Below, in pieces: positions 22,550 through 34,986 of a stretch of DNA of 64,000 nt. The first letter of the stretch is position 1, and every line of letters begins with the position of its first letter. Made by a program: the position numbers and the translations under genes. Origin of the DNA: an uncultured Cetobacterium sp. (GTDB taxonomy: Bacteria > Fusobacteriota > Fusobacteriia > Fusobacteriales > Fusobacteriaceae); the NCBI RefSeq assembly GCF_945952365.1, contig NZ_CAMFHX010000010.1, positions 1 to 64,000 on the forward strand. The letters run 5' to 3'. The notes under the pieces were generated by a model. The model saw nothing but the letters and a program-made list of their open reading frames with translations. It had not been told where the DNA came from and did no database searches.

Positions 22550-24106
22550 TTAAACAACCTCTCCTTCTCTGGTTAATCTCGATGATAATAATTTTTTTGT
22601 GTATTCATGTTTTGGATTTTGAATAATTTTATCAGTTTTTCCTATCTCTACTATTTCACCTGAATTTATAACCGCAACTCTATCACAAAAATATTTTACT
22701 ACTGATAAATCATGGGTTATAAATATTATTGTTAAATTCAATTTATTTTTCATTTCCATAAAAATATTTAAAATTTGTGCTTGATTAGATATATCAAGAG
22801 CACTAATAGATTCGTCTGCCACAATAATTTTTGGATTTAGAATAATTGCTGTAACAATCGTAACTCTTTGTCTTTCACCACCACTAAGCTCTTTTGGTAA
22901 TTTGTAATAATATTCTTCTGTTAAGCCAACCATTTTTAAATATTTAATAGATTTTTTCTTTCTTTCTTCTTTAGTTAGATTTGTGTGTGCTTTTAAAGGC
23001 TCTTCTAAATGCCAACCAACCGTATGAAAAGGATTTAATGTACTGTAAGGATCTTGAAATATTGACTGGATGTCTTTTTTTTCATTTTTTCCTGAAAAAA
23101 AAATATTTCCTGAATCTACTTTTTCTAAACCTAATATGCACTTTCCAAGAGTACTCTTTCCACTCCCTGATTCTCCTACTATCCCTAAAACTTCATTTTC
23201 ATATATATCTAAAGAAAGATTATTTAAAATTAAAGACTCCTTTTTTTTATATCTTTTTTTTATTTTTTTTATAGCTAATATTAATTTTTTATTTTTCTTA
23301 TTAAAATTAGTTTCTTCTAAAATTTTATTTTCATTTTTTATATAGTTTTCTGGTTTCAATCGAATTAGAGATTTTGTATAATCATTTTGAGGATTATTTA
23401 GAACCTGTTCTAATTCACCCTTTTCTATTATCTTTCCTTTGTACATGACTAAAATATCTTCTGAAATATACTCTATAACTGATAAATCATGAGAGATAAA
23501 TATGATTGATAAGTCATATTTATCTCTCAACTCCTTAAAAAGATCTAAAATCTGTTTTTGTGTTGTCACATCTAAAGCTGTTGTTGGTTCATCTGCAATT
23601 AAAAGATACGGTCTATTAATTATTGCATTAGCTATAACAACTCTTTGCTTTTGACCTCCACTCAACTGATGCGGATAATATTTAACCATTTCTGGATTTA
23701 GACCTACATCTCTCATAGTATTTTCTATTCTTAAATCTATCTCTTCTTTAGTCAGAGAATTATCATGATTTATTATTGTTTCTTGAAGCTGTTTTTTTAT
23801 TTTCACAACCGGATTTAAACTTGTCATTGGATTTTGAAATACCATAGAAATTTCTTTACCTCTATAAGCTTGAAATTGTCTTTCAGATATTTCTAAAAGA
23901 TTTTTATTTTTAAATATAATCTCTCCTTCAACCTTAAACTTATCAGTTAATAATCCTAAAATAGTTTTTGAAAGCATACTTTTCCCACTTCCAGATTCAC
24001 CAACTATTCCTAAAATTCTTTTTTTTTCAAAACAAAAATCAATATTTTTCAATATGTAATTTCTTTCATTTTTTAAATTCAAATTTTTTATAGTTAATAT
24101 TTTCAT
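22550..24106 (-). CDS. Fused DppD-DppF-type ABC ATPase
   Basis: 518 residues containing two complete nucleotide-binding domains. The first has GESGSGKS, LSGGQKQRV and LIADEPTTALD; the second has GESGSGKS, LSGGERQRV and IVADESISALD. This is the peptide/nickel importer type in which the two ATPases are usually separate genes. It overlaps the end of the upstream permease by 41 bases, with AAGGAGAAAA before the ATG. The second domain has DESIS instead of DEPTS after Walker B, a common variant in this group. Confidence 0.92.
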   Translation of the reverse strand: MKILTIKNLNLKNERNYILKNIDFCFEKKRILGIVGESGSGKSMLSKTILGLLTDKFKVEGEIIFKNKNLLEISERQFQAYRGKEISMVFQNPMTSLNPVVKIKKQLQETIINHDNSLTKEEIDLRIENTMRDVGLNPEMVKYYPHQLSGGQKQRVVIANAIINRPYLLIADEPTTALDVTTQKQILDLFKELRDKYDLSIIFISHDLSVIEYISEDILVMYKGKIIEKGELEQVLNNPQNDYTKSLIRLKPENYIKNENKILEETNFNKKNKKLILAIKKIKKRYKKKESLILNNLSLDIYENEVLGIVGESGSGKSTLGKCILGLEKVDSGNIFFSGKNEKKDIQSIFQDPYSTLNPFHTVGWHLEEPLKAHTNLTKEERKKKSIKYLKMVGLTEEYYYKLPKELSGGERQRVTIVTAIILNPKIIVADESISALDISNQAQILNIFMEMKNKLNLTIIFITHDLSVVKYFCDRVAVINSGEIVEIGKTDKIIQNPKHEYTKKLLSSRLTREGEVV

Positions 24107-24908
24107 TTTTTCTCCTTTTGTCTAAAATTTCTTTAACTCCATCTCCTAACTGATTGAAACCAAGTGCTGTTAAAGTTATAAAAATTCCCGGTACAATTGA
24201 ATAAAATGGATTTAAAAATATAAATTCCTTTGATTCTGAAAGTATCATTCCCCAGCTTGGATAAGGTAATTGTACTCCTAATCCTAAATAACTTAAACCT
24301 GCTTCCATTAATATAACATTCGAAAATTTCATCGCTGCATTAACAATTATTGTAGATTTAATATTTGGTAGGATATGAACGAATAAAATTCTAAAATCAT
24401 TTACACCAATAGTCTTTGCCCAAAAAATATAGTCTAAGTTTTTTATTTCTAAAACTTTTCCTCTCGTAAGCCTTATTATTGATGGTAAAATTAAAATTGT
24501 TATTGAAATAACCGTATTCAAATTACTTTTTCCTAAAATTGCTATAAACATAAGCAATATTAAAATTCCTGGAATCGCTATAATAGAATCTACAATTTTC
24601 ATTAAAATTGTATCAATAATACCTCCATAGTAACCTGAAATCAGACCAATTAGAGTTCCAATTAAGCTACTCATAAATATAACTATTGTACTTAAAATAA
24701 AAGCACTCTGACTTGCTATCATTATTCTCGAAAATATATCCCTTCCTAAATAGTCCGTTCCTAAAAAATTGGTATAACTCGGATAAGCTATTTTATTAAA
24801 CTCATTTATTTTATAAGGATCATAAGGTGTCCATACAAAACTCAACAACATTATAAACAATAAACTTCCTAAAATGAGACTTCCTATATAAAGATTTTTA
24901 TTTTTCAT
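24066..24908 (-). CDS. ABC transporter permease, DppC type
   Basis: 280 residues with six membrane helices and the EAA loop ending in the usual form (AKTIGVNDFRILFVHILPN, then GLSYLGLGVQLPYPSWGMIL). It carries the extracellular TDYLGRDIFSR motif of DppC/OppC permeases. It pairs with the permease just upstream to form the membrane channel. It begins 11 bases after the DppB-type gene and overlaps the ATPase gene. Confidence 0.9.
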   Translation of the reverse strand: MKNKNLYIGSLILGSLLFIMLLSFVWTPYDPYKINEFNKIAYPSYTNFLGTDYLGRDIFSRIMIASQSAFILSTIVIFMSSLIGTLIGLISGYYGGIIDTILMKIVDSIIAIPGILILLMFIAILGKSNLNTVISITILILPSIIRLTRGKVLEIKNLDYIFWAKTIGVNDFRILFVHILPNIKSTIIVNAAMKFSNVILMEAGLSYLGLGVQLPYPSWGMILSESKEFIFLNPFYSIVPGIFITLTALGFNQLGDGVKEILDKRRKNENINYKKFEFKK

Positions 24909-24919
24909 TTTTCCTCCAT

Positions 24920-25855
24920 CTATTTTGAAACTCTAGGATCTACAACAGAATAAAGAGTATCCACACAAAGATTTATAATAATCACAGTTAAACTAAAGAA
25001 AAATACGATTCCTTGTGTTAACGGTATATCTCTTTGATCAACAGCATTTATTAAAAGACTTCCAATTCCTGAAAGACCAAAAACATTTTCTATTATTATA
25101 CTTCCTGAAAGAAGATTTAAAATGATCATTCCTATGATTGTTATTACTGGAATTAATGAATTTTTAAGCATATGCTTATATATTATTTTATTCATACTTG
25201 TTCCTTTTGCTACAGCAAAAACTACATAATCCTTTTCTTTTTGATCTGCTAATTCATTTGCTAAGTATCTCATAATAATTGAGATACTTCCCATACTTAT
25301 CGCTATAACTGGTAATATTAAAGCTCTTAAAGTTTTTAAAGGTAGATTCCAGTCAATTGAAACAATAACTGGTAATATTCTTAGCTTCAAACAAAATAAG
25401 TACATTAAAACTATTCCTATCCAAAATGAAGGTGTTGATATATTGATCTGAATAAATATTTTCAAAAAATTTCCGATTTTGTTATTTTGATTTTTATATA
25501 AAACTATTCCCATTGGAATAGATATTATAACTATAAAAAATAGTGAAATTAATCCTAAAGAAAGGGTTATTTTTAATCTACTTATAATTAAATCTACAAC
25601 CGTATAATTTTCGTAAATATACGATTTACCTAAATCAAATCTTAAAATATTATAAACCCATTCAAAATATTGCTTATATAAAGGTTTATCTATTCCCATT
25701 GTTTTTTTATAAACCTCTGCCATATTAAATTCATCTTCCATTCCAGCTTTTAAAGTTGCTGCATCTCCAGGTAAGATTTGAAAAATTACAAAAATTAGTA
25801 TTGTTATAATAAAAATTGTAATTAATGATGATATTATTTTTTTCAAATATTTCAT
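24920..25855 (-). CDS. ABC transporter permease, DppB type
   Basis: 311 residues, six membrane segments, with the DppB/OppB N-terminus (ISSLITIFIITILIFVIFQILPGD), the EAA loop VFAVAKGTSMNKIIYKHMLKNSLIP and the ending NLCVDTLYSVVDPRVSK. It is five bases from the binding-protein gene and forms a heterodimer with the following permease. Confidence 0.9.
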   Translation of the reverse strand: MKYLKKIISSLITIFIITILIFVIFQILPGDAATLKAGMEDEFNMAEVYKKTMGIDKPLYKQYFEWVYNILRFDLGKSYIYENYTVVDLIISRLKITLSLGLISLFFIVIISIPMGIVLYKNQNNKIGNFLKIFIQINISTPSFWIGIVLMYLFCLKLRILPVIVSIDWNLPLKTLRALILPVIAISMGSISIIMRYLANELADQKEKDYVVFAVAKGTSMNKIIYKHMLKNSLIPVITIIGMIILNLLSGSIIIENVFGLSGIGSLLINAVDQRDIPLTQGIVFFFSLTVIIINLCVDTLYSVVDPRVSK

Positions 25856-25860
25856 TTTAA

Positions 25861-27354
25861 CTACCCTCTCTTTTTTATATTAAATATATCTATAAATGTA
25901 AACGGATAAGCTTTGTAATTAGTAAATTTTTTAGATAATGCTATACTTATCCCTTGGTCCATTATCCATATTGATACTACTTCATCTGTCAAAATCTTTT
26001 GTATTCTTTTATAAGCTTTTACTTCCTCTTCTTTTGAATTTTGATTAAACGCTTCTTTTAATAAATTATCAATTTCTATATTTTTATATTGCGGCATATT
26101 TCCCGAAGCCATGCTCCCATATCTAGATAAAACTCTATATGGATCTGGATATCCAACAATTTGTAATAAAGCTGCTTCATAATTATGTTCTCTATAAACC
26201 TCTGTAAAATAATTTGTCCAAGGTAAAGAATGAATCTCCACATTTACTCCTATAGAAGATAACTCTTCTTTTATTATAACGGCCATTGTATTGTCAAAAC
26301 TATTCTCACCAACAACTTTCAATGTAAAACTCAAATTCTCATAACCACTATTCTTTAATAATTCTTTTGCTTTAACTATATCTTTAACCTGAATTGGAAT
26401 ATTTTCAATATAGTCTCTCATATAAGGAGACATATGGGTAGATAAAGCTACTCCACTATCTTTTGCTAAAATATTAACCAATCTGTTCTTATCTATTCCT
26501 AATTCAATAGCTTCTCTTACCTCCTTATTTTTAAATGCTTCAAACTCATGATTTAAAAACATCGTTCTAACATCATTTGCTAAACCATCATAAATTGAAC
26601 TTCCTGAAACTTTTTCTACTATTTTTCTATTATCTGAAGTTATTTGAAGTAAATCTAATTCTCCCGCTTGGAAAGCCATCAATTGAGAAGATGTATCTGG
26701 AAAAATCTTAAATGTTACTTCTTTTACATCTCCAACACCTTTATAAAAATCTTTGAAAGCAGATAAAACTATTTTTTCTCCAGGAACATACTCTACAAAT
26801 TTATATGGTCCCGCTCCTATTGGCTTTTTTTCTTGTTCTTCTTCGCTAACATCTTTAGGTATTATAAATGTATCTATCACTTCAAAAATTATTTGAGATA
26901 AACTTATATTTTCATTAAAACTCATTTTTATAGTTTTGTCATTAATTATGTCTATATCTTCTAAACTATTTGACAATAAAGATGATATTGGAGCTTTTCC
27001 ATCTTTTCCAGCTACTCTTTCATATGAATACTTTATATCATCTATAGTTATATCTTTTGTATTATGAAATTTAGTACCCTCTCTTAAAATCATAGTTATA
27101 CTCTTAGTTTTTTCATCTAAAAAATAACTTTTAGCTAAAGCTTCTTTTACTTCTTTAGAATCAACATCATATTCTAACATTCCTAAATGCATATTTCTCA
27201 TAACTCCTTTGGTTGATGCTGATACATCTCTGAGTGGAGCTAATGATTTAAATCCTGTTTTTATAGGAATAACCATTTTTAATGTCTCTTCTTTCTTCTC
27301 ACACCCCATTAAGATTGCAACTATTACAAATAATAAATAAACTATTTTTTTCAA
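25861..27354 (-). CDS. Peptide-type ABC solute-binding lipoprotein
   Basis: 497 residues. A lipoprotein signal (MKKIVYLLFVIVAILMGC) puts Cys18 on the periplasmic membrane face. The mature part is an SBP_bac_5 protein with TKSITMILREGTKFHN and LSAFKDFYKG segments. It delivers peptides, nickel chelates or related solutes to the two permeases behind it. The start is a TTG at 27354, 8 bases after AAAGGAG; no in-frame ATG is better placed. It is the first gene of a six-gene unit ending at 21140. The binding specificity is not readable. Confidence 0.88.
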   Translation of the reverse strand: MKKIVYLLFVIVAILMGCEKKEETLKMVIPIKTGFKSLAPLRDVSASTKGVMRNMHLGMLEYDVDSKEVKEALAKSYFLDEKTKSITMILREGTKFHNTKDITIDDIKYSYERVAGKDGKAPISSLLSNSLEDIDIINDKTIKMSFNENISLSQIIFEVIDTFIIPKDVSEEEQEKKPIGAGPYKFVEYVPGEKIVLSAFKDFYKGVGDVKEVTFKIFPDTSSQLMAFQAGELDLLQITSDNRKIVEKVSGSSIYDGLANDVRTMFLNHEFEAFKNKEVREAIELGIDKNRLVNILAKDSGVALSTHMSPYMRDYIENIPIQVKDIVKAKELLKNSGYENLSFTLKVVGENSFDNTMAVIIKEELSSIGVNVEIHSLPWTNYFTEVYREHNYEAALLQIVGYPDPYRVLSRYGSMASGNMPQYKNIEIDNLLKEAFNQNSKEEEVKAYKRIQKILTDEVVSIWIMDQGISIALSKKFTNYKAYPFTFIDIFNIKKRG

Positions 27355-27570
27355 TTTTTCATCTCCTTTTTAATTCTATTTGTTCAAGTTTATCATTAAA
27401 ATGTTAAATCTAAATTAAACAGATGTAAAATATAAGAAAACTAATTTCTACTCTTTATTCACAACAATTATTTTCTCGAATAACAATTGCTTGTGAAAAA
27501 AATATTGCAATGTTTAGAAAGTTATGGTACCATCTTTTTGTAAAAGAATTAACATACAAACACAAATTAA

Positions 27571-27632
27571 CTCATATATACTTGGGATTGGCCAAGAGTT
27601 TCTACGAGCTGCCGTAAATAGCTCACTATGAG
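27571..27632 (+). ncRNA. Purine riboswitch aptamer (guanine-type)
   Basis: The aptamer fits the purine class closely: P1 CTCAT (27571-27575) with ATGAG (27628-27632), P2 CTTGG/CCAAG around GATTGG, J2/3 AGTTTCTAC, P3 GAGCT/AGCTC around GCCGTAAAT, and J3/1 ACTATG. The C in ACTATG corresponds to C74, which in known examples selects guanine or hypoxanthine; adenine switches have U there. Its distance to the gene and the terminator behind it fit transcription control of the exported nucleosidase gene at 27729. Confidence 0.9.
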
Positions 27633-27654
27633 GGATGATATAATCACTAATAAT

Positions 27655-27696
27655 GAGAGTATATATTCCCATAGGATTTTATATGCTCTTTTTTAT
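27655..27696 (+). terminator. Riboswitch expression platform (terminator)
   Basis: GAGAGTATAT (from 27655) pairs with TATATGCTC (to about 27689), with one A-G mismatch, followed by TTTTTT. AGTATATA at 27658-27665 could instead pair with TATATACT at 27575-27582, inside P1/P2 of the aptamer. This is a plausible antiterminator, so bound guanine would leave the terminator free and switch expression off. The logic is inferred from pairing only. Confidence 0.65.
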
Positions 27697-27728
27697 TTTC
27701 ATAAAATTTATTTTAAAGGGAGAACCAA

Positions 27729-28478
27729 ATGAAAAAACTTACATTACTTTTAACACTTCTGACATCAACACTATCTTTAGCTGACAGAATAGCTATAATC
27801 GGAGCTATGGACTCTGAAATAAAAATTTTACTTTCACAAATGAAAAATGTAGAACAAGAGGAAAAAGCTTCTGTTGTATTTTATAAAGGAAAATTAGAAA
27901 ATAAAGATGTTGTTGTTTTCAAGTCTGGAATTGGAAAAGTTAATGCTGCTATGTCTACAACTATCGCTATGGAAGAGTATGATGTAAATAAAATAATCTT
28001 CACTGGAGTTGCTGGAGCAATCAATAATAACTTAAATATAACTGATGTTGTTGTATCTGATTATTTAGTTCAACATGATTATGACACTACAGTATTTGGT
28101 ACTAAAAAAGGGGCTGTTCCTGGATCAGTTGATGCTAAGTTCTCAGCTGATAAAAACTTAATTAATATTGCTAAAAATTCCGCTGAAAAAGTTTTAGGAA
28201 AAGATAAAGTTTATGTTGGAACAATTGCAACTGGAGATCAATTTATAGCTGATAAGAAAACTGTACAAGCTTTAGAATCTGAATTTGGTGCATGGGCTGT
28301 TGAAATGGAAGGAGCTGCTGTTGCTCACGTTGCTAATCTTTATAAAACTCCTGTTGTTGTTATTAGATCTATGTCTGATAAGGCTGATGGAAGTGCTCAT
28401 ATGAACTACAATGATTTCGTTAATATTGCTGCTGATAACTCTGCTAAAATCGTTATCAATATGCTATCACAAATGTAA
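27729..28478 (+). CDS. Exported 5'-methylthioadenosine/S-adenosylhomocysteine nucleosidase
   Basis: 249 residues. Residues 1-18 (MKKLTLLLTLLTSTLSLA) are a Sec signal peptide with cleavage before DRI, so the enzyme works in the periplasm, unlike the usual cytosolic MtnN/Pfs. The rest is a full MTAN domain: IAIIGAMDSEI, FTGVAGAIN, ATGDQFIAD, VEMEGAAVAHV with the catalytic Glu and RSMSDKAD with the catalytic Asp. It cleaves the glycosidic bond of MTA, SAH or related nucleosides to free the base. GGGAGAACCA precedes the ATG. A guanine-type riboswitch controls it, and it is followed by an exported unknown. Confidence 0.88.
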   Translation: MKKLTLLLTLLTSTLSLADRIAIIGAMDSEIKILLSQMKNVEQEEKASVVFYKGKLENKDVVVFKSGIGKVNAAMSTTIAMEEYDVNKIIFTGVAGAINNNLNITDVVVSDYLVQHDYDTTVFGTKKGAVPGSVDAKFSADKNLINIAKNSAEKVLGKDKVYVGTIATGDQFIADKKTVQALESEFGAWAVEMEGAAVAHVANLYKTPVVVIRSMSDKADGSAHMNYNDFVNIAADNSAKIVINMLSQM

Positions 28479-28520
28479 TTCATAATATAAATCCCACAAA
28501 CTAAACTTAGGAGACATTTA

Positions 28521-29525
28521 ATGAAAAATAAAATTTTATTTAGCTTTATACTACTTAATCTTACTGCTTTAGCTGCTCTTGATCCGAGTACTGCCATTGA
28601 AAAACTAAAATTAAAAGAGTTATCTAAAACTTATCCAAAAGAAAAAGTTCAAAATTCTTTAAAAGGTTATAAAAATATTAAATCAGAATCTTTAGAATCT
28701 CTTTCAGATAAAGCTGTTTTAATCGACCTTAATATAACAACTGTGGACTTGCTAAATAAAAAAGATTACTCAACAATTTCTAATTATGTTGATGATTTTT
28801 TAGATATGAATGAAAATAGTTTAGGAAATATATCTGATAAAAATATCCTTGAGAGAGTTTCAAAAAAATGGTCTGCAACTGTAGCGCCTAAAGATACCCT
28901 TCTTTTAAACAACTTAAACATAGCTTTAGCTAATGGATTAATGACAGGATATAACTTAAAAAATATAAATGAATATGCAAACTTTAAAAAAGAACTAACT
29001 GCCAGTTATGGTCACAATGATATAACTCATGCTTTACAGCTGATATCTTTATTAAAAAGTGAAGGTTTAGATGCTAAAATACAACTAGAACCTAAGACCT
29101 CTGCTTTTTTACATAATCCAAATTGGGGTTCTCCTAACTATGACCACATAATTTTAGAGGATGGTAAAATAGTTCTTACTCCTACTGAATACGATTTAAA
29201 ATTTGAATTTAAAAATGTAAACGATAAAATTAAATTCACAAAAATTATAGATCGTTATGCTAAGAAAGACTCTAAAGACCAAGAGGGATTAATATATAAA
29301 TCTTGGTGGCAACCATTTGTACAAACTGATAAAATTGAAGGATACAATATGCTTATCTCTCATCTAGTTAAAAATGGTAATTTTGAAGCTAACGTATTAA
29401 CTTTACCTAAAAATTCTGAAGCTTTCATTAAAGCTATGAAAAAGGAATCAACTCTTGAAGTTACTGCTCAAGAGATTTGGGTTAATCCCGCTTTCTATAG
29501 ATTTATGGAAGGTAATTACAAATAA
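28521..29525 (+). CDS. Exported hypothetical protein, 334 aa
   Basis: No family recognised. Residues 1-18 (MKNKILFSFILLNLTALA) are a Sec signal peptide. The mature part has a helical N-half rich in Lys/Asn/Leu, a phrase YGHNDITHALQLISLLKSEGLDAKIQLEP with a transglutaminase- or cysteine-peptidase-like look but no clear Cys, then HNPNWGSPNYDHIILEDGKIVLTP. It starts 42 bases after the nucleosidase gene behind AGGAGACAT and shares its terminator, so both are under the riboswitch. It may handle or bind the same periplasmic substrate. Confidence 0.7.
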   Translation: MKNKILFSFILLNLTALAALDPSTAIEKLKLKELSKTYPKEKVQNSLKGYKNIKSESLESLSDKAVLIDLNITTVDLLNKKDYSTISNYVDDFLDMNENSLGNISDKNILERVSKKWSATVAPKDTLLLNNLNIALANGLMTGYNLKNINEYANFKKELTASYGHNDITHALQLISLLKSEGLDAKIQLEPKTSAFLHNPNWGSPNYDHIILEDGKIVLTPTEYDLKFEFKNVNDKIKFTKIIDRYAKKDSKDQEGLIYKSWWQPFVQTDKIEGYNMLISHLVKNGNFEANVLTLPKNSEAFIKAMKKESTLEVTAQEIWVNPAFYRFMEGNYK

Positions 29526-29529
29526 TATA

Positions 29530-29576
29530 AAAGAAGACCAAACTCTCAAAATGAGAGTTTGGTCTTCTTTTTTTTC
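29530..29576. terminator. Bidirectional terminator
   Basis: A 19-bp perfect stem (29530-29548 with 29552-29570) with a 3-base loop and U-runs on both strands, between the riboswitch unit and bioC. Confidence 0.9.
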
Positions 29577-30234: not shown

Positions 30235-30838
30235 CTAAAATATCCACCAACCTACTTACAAATTTTTTCTCATTAAAGATAAAATGTTCTCCATCTATCT
30301 CATAAATTAAACTACCATTTTCTGTAAAATATTTTTTTTGATTTTTAAATTTTATTATTCGATCATTTTTAGAAATTATAGCTTTTTTTATATAGTTTTC
30401 TCTTTCTATATAGTTATCTATAAAATCTAAAAGTTCAATTTTCAATTCCGATATAGCTTTTTTTCCATCAAAAATAGATATATTTTTATTATCTAAAATT
30501 CCTATATTTTTATAAAATCTCTCTAAAGATTCTTCCGTCAAATTTTCAAGAGTATACTCCAACATTTTTTTTGAAATTCCTCTCTCTCCTATCATATGTG
30601 GAGTCCCATTAATTCCTATTGTCTCATAGCTCCGATAAGAAGGATTCTCTTCTAAAAATTTATTTAAATAGTAAACCCCAAATGACCAGCCTACAAATAT
30701 AATTTTTTTATATTCTAAGTCAACCTCTTCATACTCATATTTATATGGATAATTCAAATATCTAATCTTCCATCCATTTCCTACAGAAAAATTTAAACTC
30801 TTTATTCCCCAGCCATTAAAGAATATTATCAATTTCAT
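30224..30838 (-). CDS. bioG: Pimeloyl-ACP methyl ester esterase BioG
   Basis: 204 residues of the BioG/DUF452 alpha-beta hydrolase family. The nucleophile is S52 in VGWSFG, with D159 and H185 (DGEHF) as likely triad partners, and an FFNGWG start typical of BioG. It removes the methyl ester from pimeloyl-ACP, ending chain elongation for biotin. It replaces BioH here. It overlaps both bioF (23 bases) and bioC (11 bases), implying coupled translation. Confidence 0.9.
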   Translation of the reverse strand: MKLIIFFNGWGIKSLNFSVGNGWKIRYLNYPYKYEYEEVDLEYKKIIFVGWSFGVYYLNKFLEENPSYRSYETIGINGTPHMIGERGISKKMLEYTLENLTEESLERFYKNIGILDNKNISIFDGKKAISELKIELLDFIDNYIERENYIKKAIISKNDRIIKFKNQKKYFTENGSLIYEIDGEHFIFNEKKFVSRLVDILDEI

Positions 30839-31943
30839 ATTTTAACTCCTCTATAAACTTTTGAACTATCTCCTTTGTATGAAGTGCTGTTAAGCTTACT
30901 CTCAATCTAGCTGTTCCTTTTGGAACTGTCGGCTCTTTAATAGGGTATATTAAGTAACCTTTCTCCTGAAGATTTTCAGATATTCTATTTACCCTCTGAT
31001 TTTCACCTATTACTATGCTAATTATATTTGTTGTAGATATTGTTTTTATTTCATATTTACTCAAAAGATTCCTAGTATACTCTGAAATCTCAATTAATCT
31101 CTCTCTTCTAAAATCAAATTTTTCTATCTTTTCGAGAATAAAAAGATTCCAAGCCACATTTATAGGAGGCAATGCTGTCGTATATATAAATTTCCTTCCT
31201 TTGTTTATCAGATACTCTTTTGATAATTCATCCATTAAAACATAAGCTCCTATTGAAGCCCCAGCTTTTCCAAGAGGAATAACAATATAGTCAACTAAAT
31301 CCAAAGCATCTGCCTCATAACATTCACCATATCCTGAAACTCCAAAAGAGTGAGCTTCATCTATTAACAATTTAAATTTATACTTATTTTTTAATTGAAC
31401 TAATTCTTTTATATCTGCTTTATCTCCATCCATACTATAAATAGTTTCTGAAACAACTAATATATCATCATACTCCAAACTATATTTTTTCAAAATTTCT
31501 TCTAAGTGATTATAATCTAGATGTCTATATCTTAAAAGTTTTGCCTCTGAAGCTTTTATTCCAGCATATATACTTGAATGATTATATCTATCACTTATAA
31601 TAAGTGAATTTTTAGAAAATAAAGTTTCTATCAAGCAAGTGTTAGCATCATATCCACTATTAAATAGTAAAGCTTTTTTATTATAAATTTTTTCTAATAT
31701 TTTTTCCAACTTTATGATTATAGGATAAGTTCTACTAAGTAATCTTGACGAGGAAGATGAAAACATTAAATCGACATTCTTATATTTTTCAAAAAACTCT
31801 ATTCTTAATTCTCTATCTTCATTCAATCCTAAATAGTCGTTTGATGAAAAATTAATATACTTTTTGTCAATTGACTTTAAACTTCGGTAATTCTCATCTT
31901 TTTTTAATTTTGATAACTCTTTAATAATATCCTCTTCTCTCAT
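30816..31943 (-). CDS. bioF: 8-amino-7-oxononanoate synthase
   Basis: 375 residues, PLP-dependent alpha-oxoamine synthase. Visible motifs are NFSSNDYLGL near the start, DEAHSFGVSGYG with D195 and H198, and the PLP lysine K226 in PLGKAGASIGAY. It condenses pimeloyl-ACP with alanine. It starts the base after the end of bioDA and overlaps bioG. Confidence 0.95.
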   Translation of the reverse strand: MREEDIIKELSKLKKDENYRSLKSIDKKYINFSSNDYLGLNEDRELRIEFFEKYKNVDLMFSSSSSRLLSRTYPIIIKLEKILEKIYNKKALLFNSGYDANTCLIETLFSKNSLIISDRYNHSSIYAGIKASEAKLLRYRHLDYNHLEEILKKYSLEYDDILVVSETIYSMDGDKADIKELVQLKNKYKFKLLIDEAHSFGVSGYGECYEADALDLVDYIVIPLGKAGASIGAYVLMDELSKEYLINKGRKFIYTTALPPINVAWNLFILEKIEKFDFRRERLIEISEYTRNLLSKYEIKTISTTNIISIVIGENQRVNRISENLQEKGYLIYPIKEPTVPKGTARLRVSLTALHTKEIVQKFIEELKYEIDNIL

Positions 31944-34004
31944 CTAAACCTCAAATCCTACAAAACTATTTATAAATTTATTGTTTACTTCCATATTTTT
32001 TCTTTTTATCAAATACTCTTCAATAGATTCTAGACACTTTTCTAACATAAAATCTATCTCATCTAACTCAATTGTATATGGTGGCATAAAGTATACTACA
32101 TCTCCCAAAGGCCTAATTATAATTCCTTTTTCAAGACCTATCTTATAAATTTCATATGTTGCTCTCTCGTAAGACTTAAATCTCTCTTTTTTCTCTTTAT
32201 CTTTAACTAATTCAAGGGCACCAATAAAACCAATCTGTCTATACTCTCCAATATTTTTATGATTTTCAAAAATTTCTCTAGCTTTTTTCTCTAAATATTG
32301 TGCTTTTTTCTCAACCTCTTTCAGAATATCTTCCTCTTTAAAAATTTTTAATGTTTCGACAGCTACCGAACACCCAAGCGGATTACCAGAATAGCTATGT
32401 GAATGTAAGAATGCTCCACCTTCTAAATAATCTTTATAAAAAGTATTATATATCTCATCCGTAATAAGAGTTAATGCCATTGGAAAATATCCCGCTGTTA
32501 GACCTTTTCCAACACACATAATATCTGGAGAGATATCTGCATGTTCACAAGCAAACATTTTTCCTGTTCTTCCAAATCCAACAGCAATCTCATCAGCTAT
32601 GAAATGAACTCCTTTTTCAATTGTTAAAGCTCTTAATTTTTTCAAATATTTTGGAGAATACATATTCATTCCTGCTGCTCCTTGCACCATTGGTTCTATT
32701 ATTACTCCTGCTATTTCATCACCATTTTCTTCTAACAACTCCTGCATATGAATAAAACATTCGGCCTCACAATTTACCGGTTTTTTATTCCAACTACATC
32801 TATAACAATCTGGACCTTCGACTTTCAGAGCTTCTTTTATAAGCGGTTTATATAACTCTGTAAACAGATTTACATCTGTTACTCCCAAAGCTCCTAAAGT
32901 TTCCCCATGATAAGCATTTTTTAAAGATACAAACTTTTTTCTTTTTGTATTCCCTTTCTCTTGATGATATTGAAATGATATTTTAAGAGCTATCTCTACT
33001 GCTGAAGAGCCATTTTCAGAAAAAATAAGTTTTTTTAAACCTTTAGGAACTACTTCAATCAACCTCTCTCCAAGTTCTATAGCTGGCTCATGTGTAAAAT
33101 TGGCAAAAATTGTATGTTCTAAACTTTCTAATTGTCTATTTAGAGCTTTATTTATCCTTTCATTGCAATGTCCAAAAAGATTTACCCACCAACTTGAAAC
33201 ACAATCCATATATCTTTTCCCATTTTCATCTATCAAATAAACTCCCTTACCTTTTTTTATAACCATCGGTGGAAGCTTTTCATAGTCTTTCATTTGTGAG
33301 CATGGATGAAAAATATATTCTAAATCTTTTTTTTGAAGCTGACTTATACTCTTATAATTTAAAAAAGTTTTTAATTTTTCTAAATCTATATCTGTTTCTC
33401 CCTCATCAACAATTAAGTAGTTATCAATTTTTGCTAACGAAACCAGCATATCTATATTATCTTTTTCAAAATATTCATTTTTAAATCTATTGAAAACAAC
33501 TCCTAAAACCGGTATTTTTTCAGCTTTAAGATAGCTTAACGTTGCTAAAGTGTGATTGATTGTTCCAACTTTTGTATCTGCTACTAAAATTACTGGTAGT
33601 TTTGATTTTTTTATTAAATCTGAATACATGTACCCATCTCTATTTAATGGAACACAAACTCCTCCTGCCCCTTCTACAATTAGATATCTGTTATTCAAAC
33701 GTTTTTTTCCTATCTTTTTTAAAATTCTTTCAAAGTCTATTTCAACTTTATCTATCTCTGCTGAAAGATGTGGCGATACTGGTTCAATTAAATTGTAACT
33801 ACACATCTCCTCACTATATTCAACTCCTGCAAACGAACAAACACTTAAAACATCTGGAGCTATTCCGTCAATTGATCCACTCTGAATGGGTTTATAATAT
33901 GTTGCTTTACTATTTTTCAAGGCCTTAAAGAACAATCCCGAAATATATGTTTTACCTATATCTGTTCCTGTTCCAACTACAAAAAAACTATCTCTTGAAT
34001 TCAA
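31944..34004 (-). CDS. bioDA: Fused dethiobiotin synthetase-DAPA aminotransferase (BioD-BioA)
   Basis: 686 residues. Residues 1-215 are BioD: VGTGTDIGKTY P-loop (10-20), KPIQSG, VEGAGGVCVPL and VLGVVFNR. Residues 230-670 are BioA, a class III aminotransferase: SSWWVNLFGHC, NGSSAVEIALK, AYHGETLGALG, DEIAVGFGRTG with D471, and PLP lysine K500. A CxxC...CxxxC group (C400, C403, C412, C416) is also seen in other BioA proteins. One polypeptide would thus do two successive steps, KAPA to DAPA to dethiobiotin, in reversed domain order. The start is TTG at 34004, 6 bases after AAGGAGG, overlapping bioB by 17 bases. There is no frameshift, so the fusion is genuine. Confidence 0.95.
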   Translation of the reverse strand: MNSRDSFFVVGTGTDIGKTYISGLFFKALKNSKATYYKPIQSGSIDGIAPDVLSVCSFAGVEYSEEMCSYNLIEPVSPHLSAEIDKVEIDFERILKKIGKKRLNNRYLIVEGAGGVCVPLNRDGYMYSDLIKKSKLPVILVADTKVGTINHTLATLSYLKAEKIPVLGVVFNRFKNEYFEKDNIDMLVSLAKIDNYLIVDEGETDIDLEKLKTFLNYKSISQLQKKDLEYIFHPCSQMKDYEKLPPMVIKKGKGVYLIDENGKRYMDCVSSWWVNLFGHCNERINKALNRQLESLEHTIFANFTHEPAIELGERLIEVVPKGLKKLIFSENGSSAVEIALKISFQYHQEKGNTKRKKFVSLKNAYHGETLGALGVTDVNLFTELYKPLIKEALKVEGPDCYRCSWNKKPVNCEAECFIHMQELLEENGDEIAGVIIEPMVQGAAGMNMYSPKYLKKLRALTIEKGVHFIADEIAVGFGRTGKMFACEHADISPDIMCVGKGLTAGYFPMALTLITDEIYNTFYKDYLEGGAFLHSHSYSGNPLGCSVAVETLKIFKEEDILKEVEKKAQYLEKKAREIFENHKNIGEYRQIGFIGALELVKDKEKKERFKSYERATYEIYKIGLEKGIIIRPLGDVVYFMPPYTIELDEIDFMLEKCLESIEEYLIKRKNMEVNNKFINSFVGFEV

Positions 34005-34986
34005 ATCCAGCCTCCTTAAATATCATTCTATCTCTTTCAATTGTGCTTCCTGTCGTTGTTAGATAATTACCTGTAAGAGCTCCATTAACTCCTGAGTTTA
34101 CTCCAATAATTTCATAATCTCCTAAAAGTTGACGTCCACCTGCATATCTTATAAAAGTATTTGGTAAAATTAATCTATATATTGCTATTGTTTTTACAAC
34201 TTCTAAAGGTGTTAGCTCCTCTATTATTTCTAAGGCTAAAGGTGTGCCTTCAATAGGAGTCAAAATATTTATTGGAACTGAATCTACCTCCAACGCTTTC
34301 AATTCAAATGCCATTTCCACTCTATCCTTTTTAGTTTCACCCAATCCTAAAATACCACCAGAACAGACTTTTAAACCAGCTTTTTTAGCATTTTTACAAG
34401 TTTCAATTCTATCTTCATAAGTATGTGTCGTGCAAATTTCATCATAAAATTTTCTTGAAGTCTCTAAATTATGATGATACATCTGTACTCCTGAATTTTT
34501 AAGTTCTTTTGCTACTTCAAAATCTATTATTCCATGAGAAGCGCATAGATGGAGAGATGTTTCATTTTTCAACTCAACGTATATCTCTTTTAAACTTTCT
34601 AATTCACAACCTATATTTAAACCTCTTCCACTTGTAACTAAAGAGAATTTATCAACTAACTTTGTTTCCATATCTTTTGCAAGCTCTAAAATTTTATTCT
34701 TGTTCATCAAATCATATACATCTGCTGCTGTATTATAGTATGATGATTGAGCACAATATCTACAATCCTCTGAACAATTTCCTGATTTAGCATTAACTAT
34801 CGTGCAGAGATTAAATATATCCCCATGAAAAGTTTCTCTAATTTTATTTGCTCCATCTAAAAGAACCTTCAAACTATCTTTATCTTTTTCGAAATCATAC
34901 TCTATAAGTTCTATAGCTTCTTCAAAAGTTATTTCACTTTTTCTTTCTAAAATTCCATCTATTATTTTCTTTATAAATTTTTTCAT
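33988..34986 (-). CDS. bioB: Biotin synthase
   Basis: 332 residues, a radical-SAM enzyme. CSEDCRYC (C71, C75, C78) binds the [4Fe-4S]/SAM cluster, and YHHNLETS, YEDRIETCKNAK, CSGGILGLGET and RYAGGRQ are the other biotin-synthase motifs, including ligands of the sacrificial second cluster. It inserts sulfur into dethiobiotin. It is the first gene of the operon, behind a promoter with a BirA-like operator; GAGGTG precedes the ATG. Confidence 0.97.
   Translation of the reverse strand: MKKFIKKIIDGILERKSEITFEEAIELIEYDFEKDKDSLKVLLDGANKIRETFHGDIFNLCTIVNAKSGNCSEDCRYCAQSSYYNTAADVYDLMNKNKILELAKDMETKLVDKFSLVTSGRGLNIGCELESLKEIYVELKNETSLHLCASHGIIDFEVAKELKNSGVQMYHHNLETSRKFYDEICTTHTYEDRIETCKNAKKAGLKVCSGGILGLGETKKDRVEMAFELKALEVDSVPINILTPIEGTPLALEIIEELTPLEVVKTIAIYRLILPNTFIRYAGGRQLLGDYEIIGVNSGVNGALTGNYLTTTGSTIERDRMIFKEAGFEFKR

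Follow-up and report, generated by a model that had tools for sequence, protein, structure and literature searches.

A predicted guanine riboswitch in front of a putatively exported MTA/SAH-type nucleosidase in Cetobacterium

Introduction

Guanine riboswitches are mostly OFF switches, and their usual targets are genes of purine synthesis, salvage or uptake (PMC9295807, PMC11477304). The described members of the family (RF00167), among them those of Bacillus subtilis xpt and yxjA and of C. difficile guaA, xpt and permease genes, have the same aptamer core, guanine-selecting C and transcription-terminating OFF design as the element described here, and they repress genes of purine synthesis, salvage and transport (PMC11477304, PMC9756952, PMC9295807). 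The main text of a regulon survey, as available, names no nucleosidase and no Fusobacteria (PMC3766115). In a search of mainly freely accessible literature, no paper was found on a purine riboswitch controlling an exported nucleosidase, and the novelty of such an arrangement is therefore provisional.

Exported nucleosidases are themselves on record. According to the available part of a report on Borrelia burgdorferi, Bgp and MtnN carry signal peptides and have MTA/SAH nucleosidase (MTAN) activity, and an external supply of adenine has been proposed for them (PMC7557402). The enzyme described below resembles them in being a signal-peptide-bearing MTAN beside a cytosolic one, as that part of the report has it, but it lies behind a riboswitch, a form of control of which the same part makes no mention (PMC7557402).

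The locus lies in a 64 kb stretch of DNA (the window) from a Cetobacterium genome; Cetobacterium sp. UBA6069 is a named near relative. Cetobacterium is a fish-gut bacterium. Unlike the guanine riboswitches in the papers searched, the one in the window has a predicted exported nucleosidase as its target.

Results

The riboswitch and its leader

The leader contains the following elements:

27552-27648, + strand: purine (guanine-type) riboswitch aptamer, Rfam RF00167 covariance-model match, kept in G008, G009, G010 and G011
27571-27632, + strand: aptamer core from the folds, with P1 (27571-27576/27627-27632), P2 (27581-27585/27592-27596) and P3 (27606-27611/27619-27624)
27626-27641, + strand: antiterminator, pairing with about 27660-27674 in the minimum-energy structure computed for a transcript that ends at 27677 (-27.5 kcal/mol)
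27655-27694, + strand: intrinsic terminator of the switch, stem 27655-27665/27680-27690 followed by a T run
27716-27724, + strand: likely ribosome-binding site, AAGGGAGAA, from the sequence

The original prediction had placed a guanine-type purine riboswitch with a complete P1, P2, J2/3, P3 and J3/1 core at this site. The covariance-model search that it called for confirmed the family, with a full-length match of 64.2 bits (gathering threshold 37; E 6.9e-9), which is the sole Rfam element across the 64 kb. The ligand-pairing C27626, immediately 5' of the P1 3' strand, equals C74 of xpt, J2/3 (UUUCUAC) and L3 (CCGUAAA) are intact, and J2/3 supplies the U expected at position 51 of the guanine class. 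Together, J2/3, L3 and C27626 form what is, by sequence, the guanine-class signature, and the ligand would be guanine (or hypoxanthine).

Taken by itself, the aptamer fold barely beats shuffled sequences (z -1.57), so the aptamer is argued from three other sources: the covariance-model match, its presence in five species, and compensatory changes in P3 in the alignment of leaders from relatives. Compared with the family consensus, the L2 loop of the window aptamer lacks one base, and the loop-loop contact may differ as a result. The same short loop (GAUUGG) is common to all five Cetobacterium aptamers (L014:1324-1420, L016:1323-1419, window 27586-27591).

The predicted antiterminator consumes both the P1 3' strand and C27626. 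The terminator of the switch (-13.6 kcal/mol; z -4.2 versus shuffles) and the antiterminator are predicted to be mutually exclusive, the pair overlaps the aptamer, and the same elements are present in the other leaders folded. Folds were taken per single sequence; the terminator pair counts from the MAFFT alignment are unreliable (one-base indel). On this predicted geometry, the leader is the common OFF arrangement.

The nucleosidase and its predicted export

Downstream of the leader, the transcript would carry two genes:

27729-28478, + strand: exported MTA/SAH-type nucleosidase (MTAN), 249 aa, by family profiles and alignment with E. coli mtn
27729-27782, + strand: predicted signal peptide of that enzyme, MKKLTLLLTLLTSTLSLA, 18 residues, rule-based
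28521-29525, + strand: exported protein without recognised family, 334 aa, with a signal-peptide-like start, found in Fusobacteriaceae only
29529-29571, + strand: terminator at the end of the two-gene transcript, with a stem of 20 pairs and a T run

The product of the first gene passes the NCBIfam models PRK05584 (267.6 bits, cut-off 169) and TIGR01704 (193.1 bits, cut-off 73.8). It is identical to E. coli mtn at the aligned E12, F105, F151-I152, M173-E174, R193 and S196-D197, residues whose catalytic or base-binding roles are established. The signal peptide, assigned by rules of charge, hydrophobicity and the -3/-1 positions, has a charged n-region, a hydrophobic h-region and an SLA cleavage site. 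The same genome also encodes an ordinary cytosolic MTAN, which is 46% identical to the window enzyme and has no N-terminal 18-residue extension. These results agree with the MTA/SAH nucleosidase with a signal peptide proposed for the locus, and they narrow a specificity that the original prediction had left open among MTA, SAH, inosine, guanosine or similar nucleosides. By sequence type the window enzyme is a classical MTAN, and MTA, SAH or 5'-deoxyadenosine, with release of adenine, is a far likelier substrate than inosine or guanosine, since the enzyme retains an active site of MTA/SAH type and members of a sister clade are found with metK behind a SAM riboswitch. Export and substrate are presumptive assignments of the sequence analysis.

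The second gene

As the original prediction had it, the second gene probably shares the transcript: no terminator was found between 27729-28478 and 28521-29525, and a strong one follows the latter. Its product was likewise correctly described as exported, to judge from its N-terminus, and as lacking a recognised family. Neither Pfam nor NCBIfam returned a family, nor did sequence or fold searches of the PDB. Two AlphaFold models (pLDDT 74.1, then 82.7 with 13 sequences) gave nothing significant against PDB and viral libraries, the best PDB fold for the 82.7 model having an E of 0.09 and TM-scores of about 0.1. A degenerate transglutaminase-like domain at residues 160-230 was considered and rejected, the candidate His not being conserved and a fold match being absent. 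One homologue has a weak match to Imm68 (E 0.002), below the cut-off.

Homologues of this protein occur in 14 of 98 Fusobacteriota genomes, all of them Fusobacteriaceae, and a scan of named genomes found them in Cetobacterium and Fusobacterium only. If the two secreted proteins formed a functional pair, with 28521-29525 as an obligate partner of the nucleosidase or a binding protein for it or its product, this would account for two adjacent genes on the same strand, with no terminator between them and both products predicted to be exported, that occur together in five Cetobacterium. Such a pair is nevertheless unlikely. The genes are unlinked in G023 and G034, the second family stands alone beside unrelated genes in other Fusobacterium, and G004 and the g21 genomes carry the nucleosidase but lack the second gene. 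The expectation that homologues of the second gene would always follow nucleosidases therefore failed, several genomes having one gene only. Within the data set, five closely related Cetobacterium are the only genomes in which the family adjoins the nucleosidase, and elsewhere its neighbours are unrelated genes; with linkage confined to these species, it is not an obligate partner. The two genes are probably co-transcribed in these five species, the link is recent or local, and the second gene may be a co-opted neighbour.

The possibility that a divergent oligopeptide-type ABC operon (22550-27354) belongs to the system was rejected, because the upstream genes are different in other Cetobacterium. 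A biotin-type cluster on the - strand (window 30816-34986) adjoins the two-gene unit and comprises, from translations only, bioB, a bioD/bioA fusion-like ORF of 686 aa and a bioF-like gene.

The purine-riboswitch regulon

The window genome has ten purine riboswitches in total, nine besides that of the window. Their targets include purE-purK, guaA and an adenosine deaminase gene; three sites have NCS2-type permeases, one of these followed by xanthine dehydrogenase-like genes. A further riboswitch precedes a 5'-deoxyadenosine/MTA/SAH deaminase-like amidohydrolase and then a permease, another a PnrA/BMP-type binding protein, and another a related amidohydrolase of MTA/SAH/5'-deoxyadenosine deaminase type with a lipoprotein signal (L061:3965-5514, G000:C6). 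From its sequence, this last protein is a second candidate for an external purine enzyme, likewise controlled by a purine riboswitch. Nearly all genes behind the other nine switches are purine genes, which fits an external purine-salvage role for the nucleosidase.

Relatives extend this picture. Among Cetobacterium, G006-G010 additionally encode a second exported, nucleosidase-like protein (261 aa, PNP_UDP_1) behind a purine riboswitch of its own (L056-L060); this protein is absent from the window's species. In G007, G009 and G010 its gene adjoins a PnrA-type gene that itself has its own switch, and in G008 an exported UshA-like 5'-nucleotidase (L058:2673-4169) stands immediately before the unit formed by the riboswitch and this second nucleosidase. 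In the second protein, Asn replaces the catalytic Asp197 of MTANs. Its interpretation as a 6-oxopurine nucleosidase on that ground is weakened, because the same Asn occurs in PDB 5b7g, an entry that its depositors name MTA/SAH nucleosidase; 5b7g/5b7n are close relatives of the second protein (E 1e-73). This type is missing from the window's genome, whose enzyme is of the classical type.

Neither LuxS nor MTR kinase was found in the window genome, although at 98.7% completeness their absence is uncertain. Neither known route would then use the ribose half, a point in favour of adenine being the product that the cell needs. In the same genome no adenine deaminase scored above the TIGR01178 cut-off, a result that counts against the salvage interpretation.

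Distribution of the exported enzyme and its controls

In the tree, the exported MTANs form one clade of 24 rows (support 100/100), separate from the cytosolic MTANs. Its members come from Cetobacterium, Fusobacterium and Sebaldella-like genomes, the last being an inferred label for the g21 genomes, and some of the Fusobacterium members (g7) have no signal peptide. A purine riboswitch lies directly upstream of the exported MTAN in five Cetobacterium, namely the window genome (G000), G008, G009, G010 and G011. The Sebaldella-like genome G092 also has one (L077:943-1040, - strand, 60.5 bits); its absence from two sister genomes suggests a separate gain (or losses). The aptamer of L077 has CCAAAAA in L3, not CCGUAAA, and its J2/3 ends in G, changes that could possibly reflect a difference in specificity or stability. 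No riboswitch was detectable with the exported enzyme in G004, G055, G094, G023, G034 and G065.

Five Fusobacterium genomes (G067, G069, G070, G071 and G072; loci L078, L080, L081, L082 and L084) have the order SAM riboswitch, metK, exported MTAN on a single strand. These are SAM-I riboswitch-metK operons in which the orthologous exported MTAN follows metK, and their ligand class differs from that of the window's switch. With a guanine switch in Cetobacterium and a SAM switch acting through metK in Fusobacterium, the exported MTAN appears from these gene orders to have been placed under different controls in different lineages.

The metK setting speaks for a role in the SAM cycle, be it disposal or recovery of MTA and SAH or methionine salvage, with the purine riboswitch as secondary wiring. 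It points to SAM metabolism in these five Fusobacterium and to that extent counts against purine salvage. For the enzyme of the window, this explanation is doubtful: a purine riboswitch controls the gene in Cetobacterium and G092, and in the window genome LuxS and MTR kinase gave no match, while a cytosolic MTAN is present in any case.

Discussion

We consider it likely that a guanine-sensing OFF riboswitch controls an exported MTAN whose release of adenine in the periplasm feeds purine salvage, within a wider purine regulon. When cytosolic guanine (or hypoxanthine) is plentiful, ligand binding would stabilise P1, the terminator would form and the nucleosidase would not be made. Under purine shortage, the antiterminator would instead capture the P1 3' strand, and the cell would produce the nucleosidase and export it. 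In the periplasm it would cleave MTA, SAH or 5'-deoxyadenosine, whether external or leaked from the cell, to adenine, which would be imported and converted into the purine pool. The enzyme would thus be one member of a regulon that also comprises importers, deaminases and synthesis genes. The RNA and protein families, the terminator/antiterminator geometry, the signal-like N-terminus, conservation and regulon membership were computed here, and from them we infer the ligand, the export, the substrate and the salvage role. Of the external salvage system originally proposed, the purine-salvage role fits the regulon, whereas the idea of the second gene as a working partner found no support. Two further points count against salvage: adenine is not the ligand of the riboswitch, and G004 has the exported enzyme with no detectable riboswitch.

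The idea of a surface-exposed MTAN that doubles as an adhesin, a role suggested for Borrelia Bgp, perhaps with the second secreted protein sharing the role, has a precedent, in the available part of the report, in Bgp and MtnN, which have signal peptides and are both active MTANs, with Bgp on the surface (PMC7557402); it is nonetheless improbable for Cetobacterium, where nothing examined points to adhesion and the regulon is metabolic. Least credible of all is an aptamer of changed specificity (2'-deoxyguanosine, guanosine or xanthine) that would suit a gene acting on nucleosides: the target is atypical, variants elsewhere were found by such targets (PMC9295807) and L2 is a base short, but L2 lies outside the ligand pocket, the U of J2/3 that corresponds to U51 and the C of J3/1 that corresponds to C74 are both preserved, J2/3 and J3/1 have no insertions, and the other purine switches of the genome precede ordinary purine genes.

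Beyond the salvage mechanism, we tentatively suggest, as somewhat less than an even prospect, that one lineage of exported MTANs in Fusobacteriota has moved between two unrelated controls, guanine and SAM riboswitches, so that the external reaction serves purine supply or SAM metabolism depending on the species. Guanine control would hold in Cetobacterium and also, seemingly as an independent event, in a Sebaldella-like genome, and SAM control would act through the metK operon in Fusobacterium. In Cetobacterium the enzyme would be part of a periplasmic purine-mining regulon, with nucleotidase, nucleosidases, deaminase and binding protein largely under guanine riboswitches.

The riboswitch and the enzyme are each ordinary members of known families. 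What is new, provisionally, is the combination of an exported nucleosidase under guanine control with relatives that have the same enzyme under SAM control. The steps that guanine riboswitches are known to govern lie inside the cell, whereas the step controlled here is probably outside the cytosol, accompanied by the lipoprotein amidohydrolase and, in relatives, by the second exported nucleosidase-like protein. The locus also gives the uncharacterised secreted protein of the Fusobacteriaceae encoded at 28521-29525 its first testable context. Cetobacterium probably makes its exported nucleosidase when purines are scarce, and the guanine versus SAM control of the same enzyme constitutes a natural experiment for asking directly which of the products released by an exported MTAN is important to the cell.
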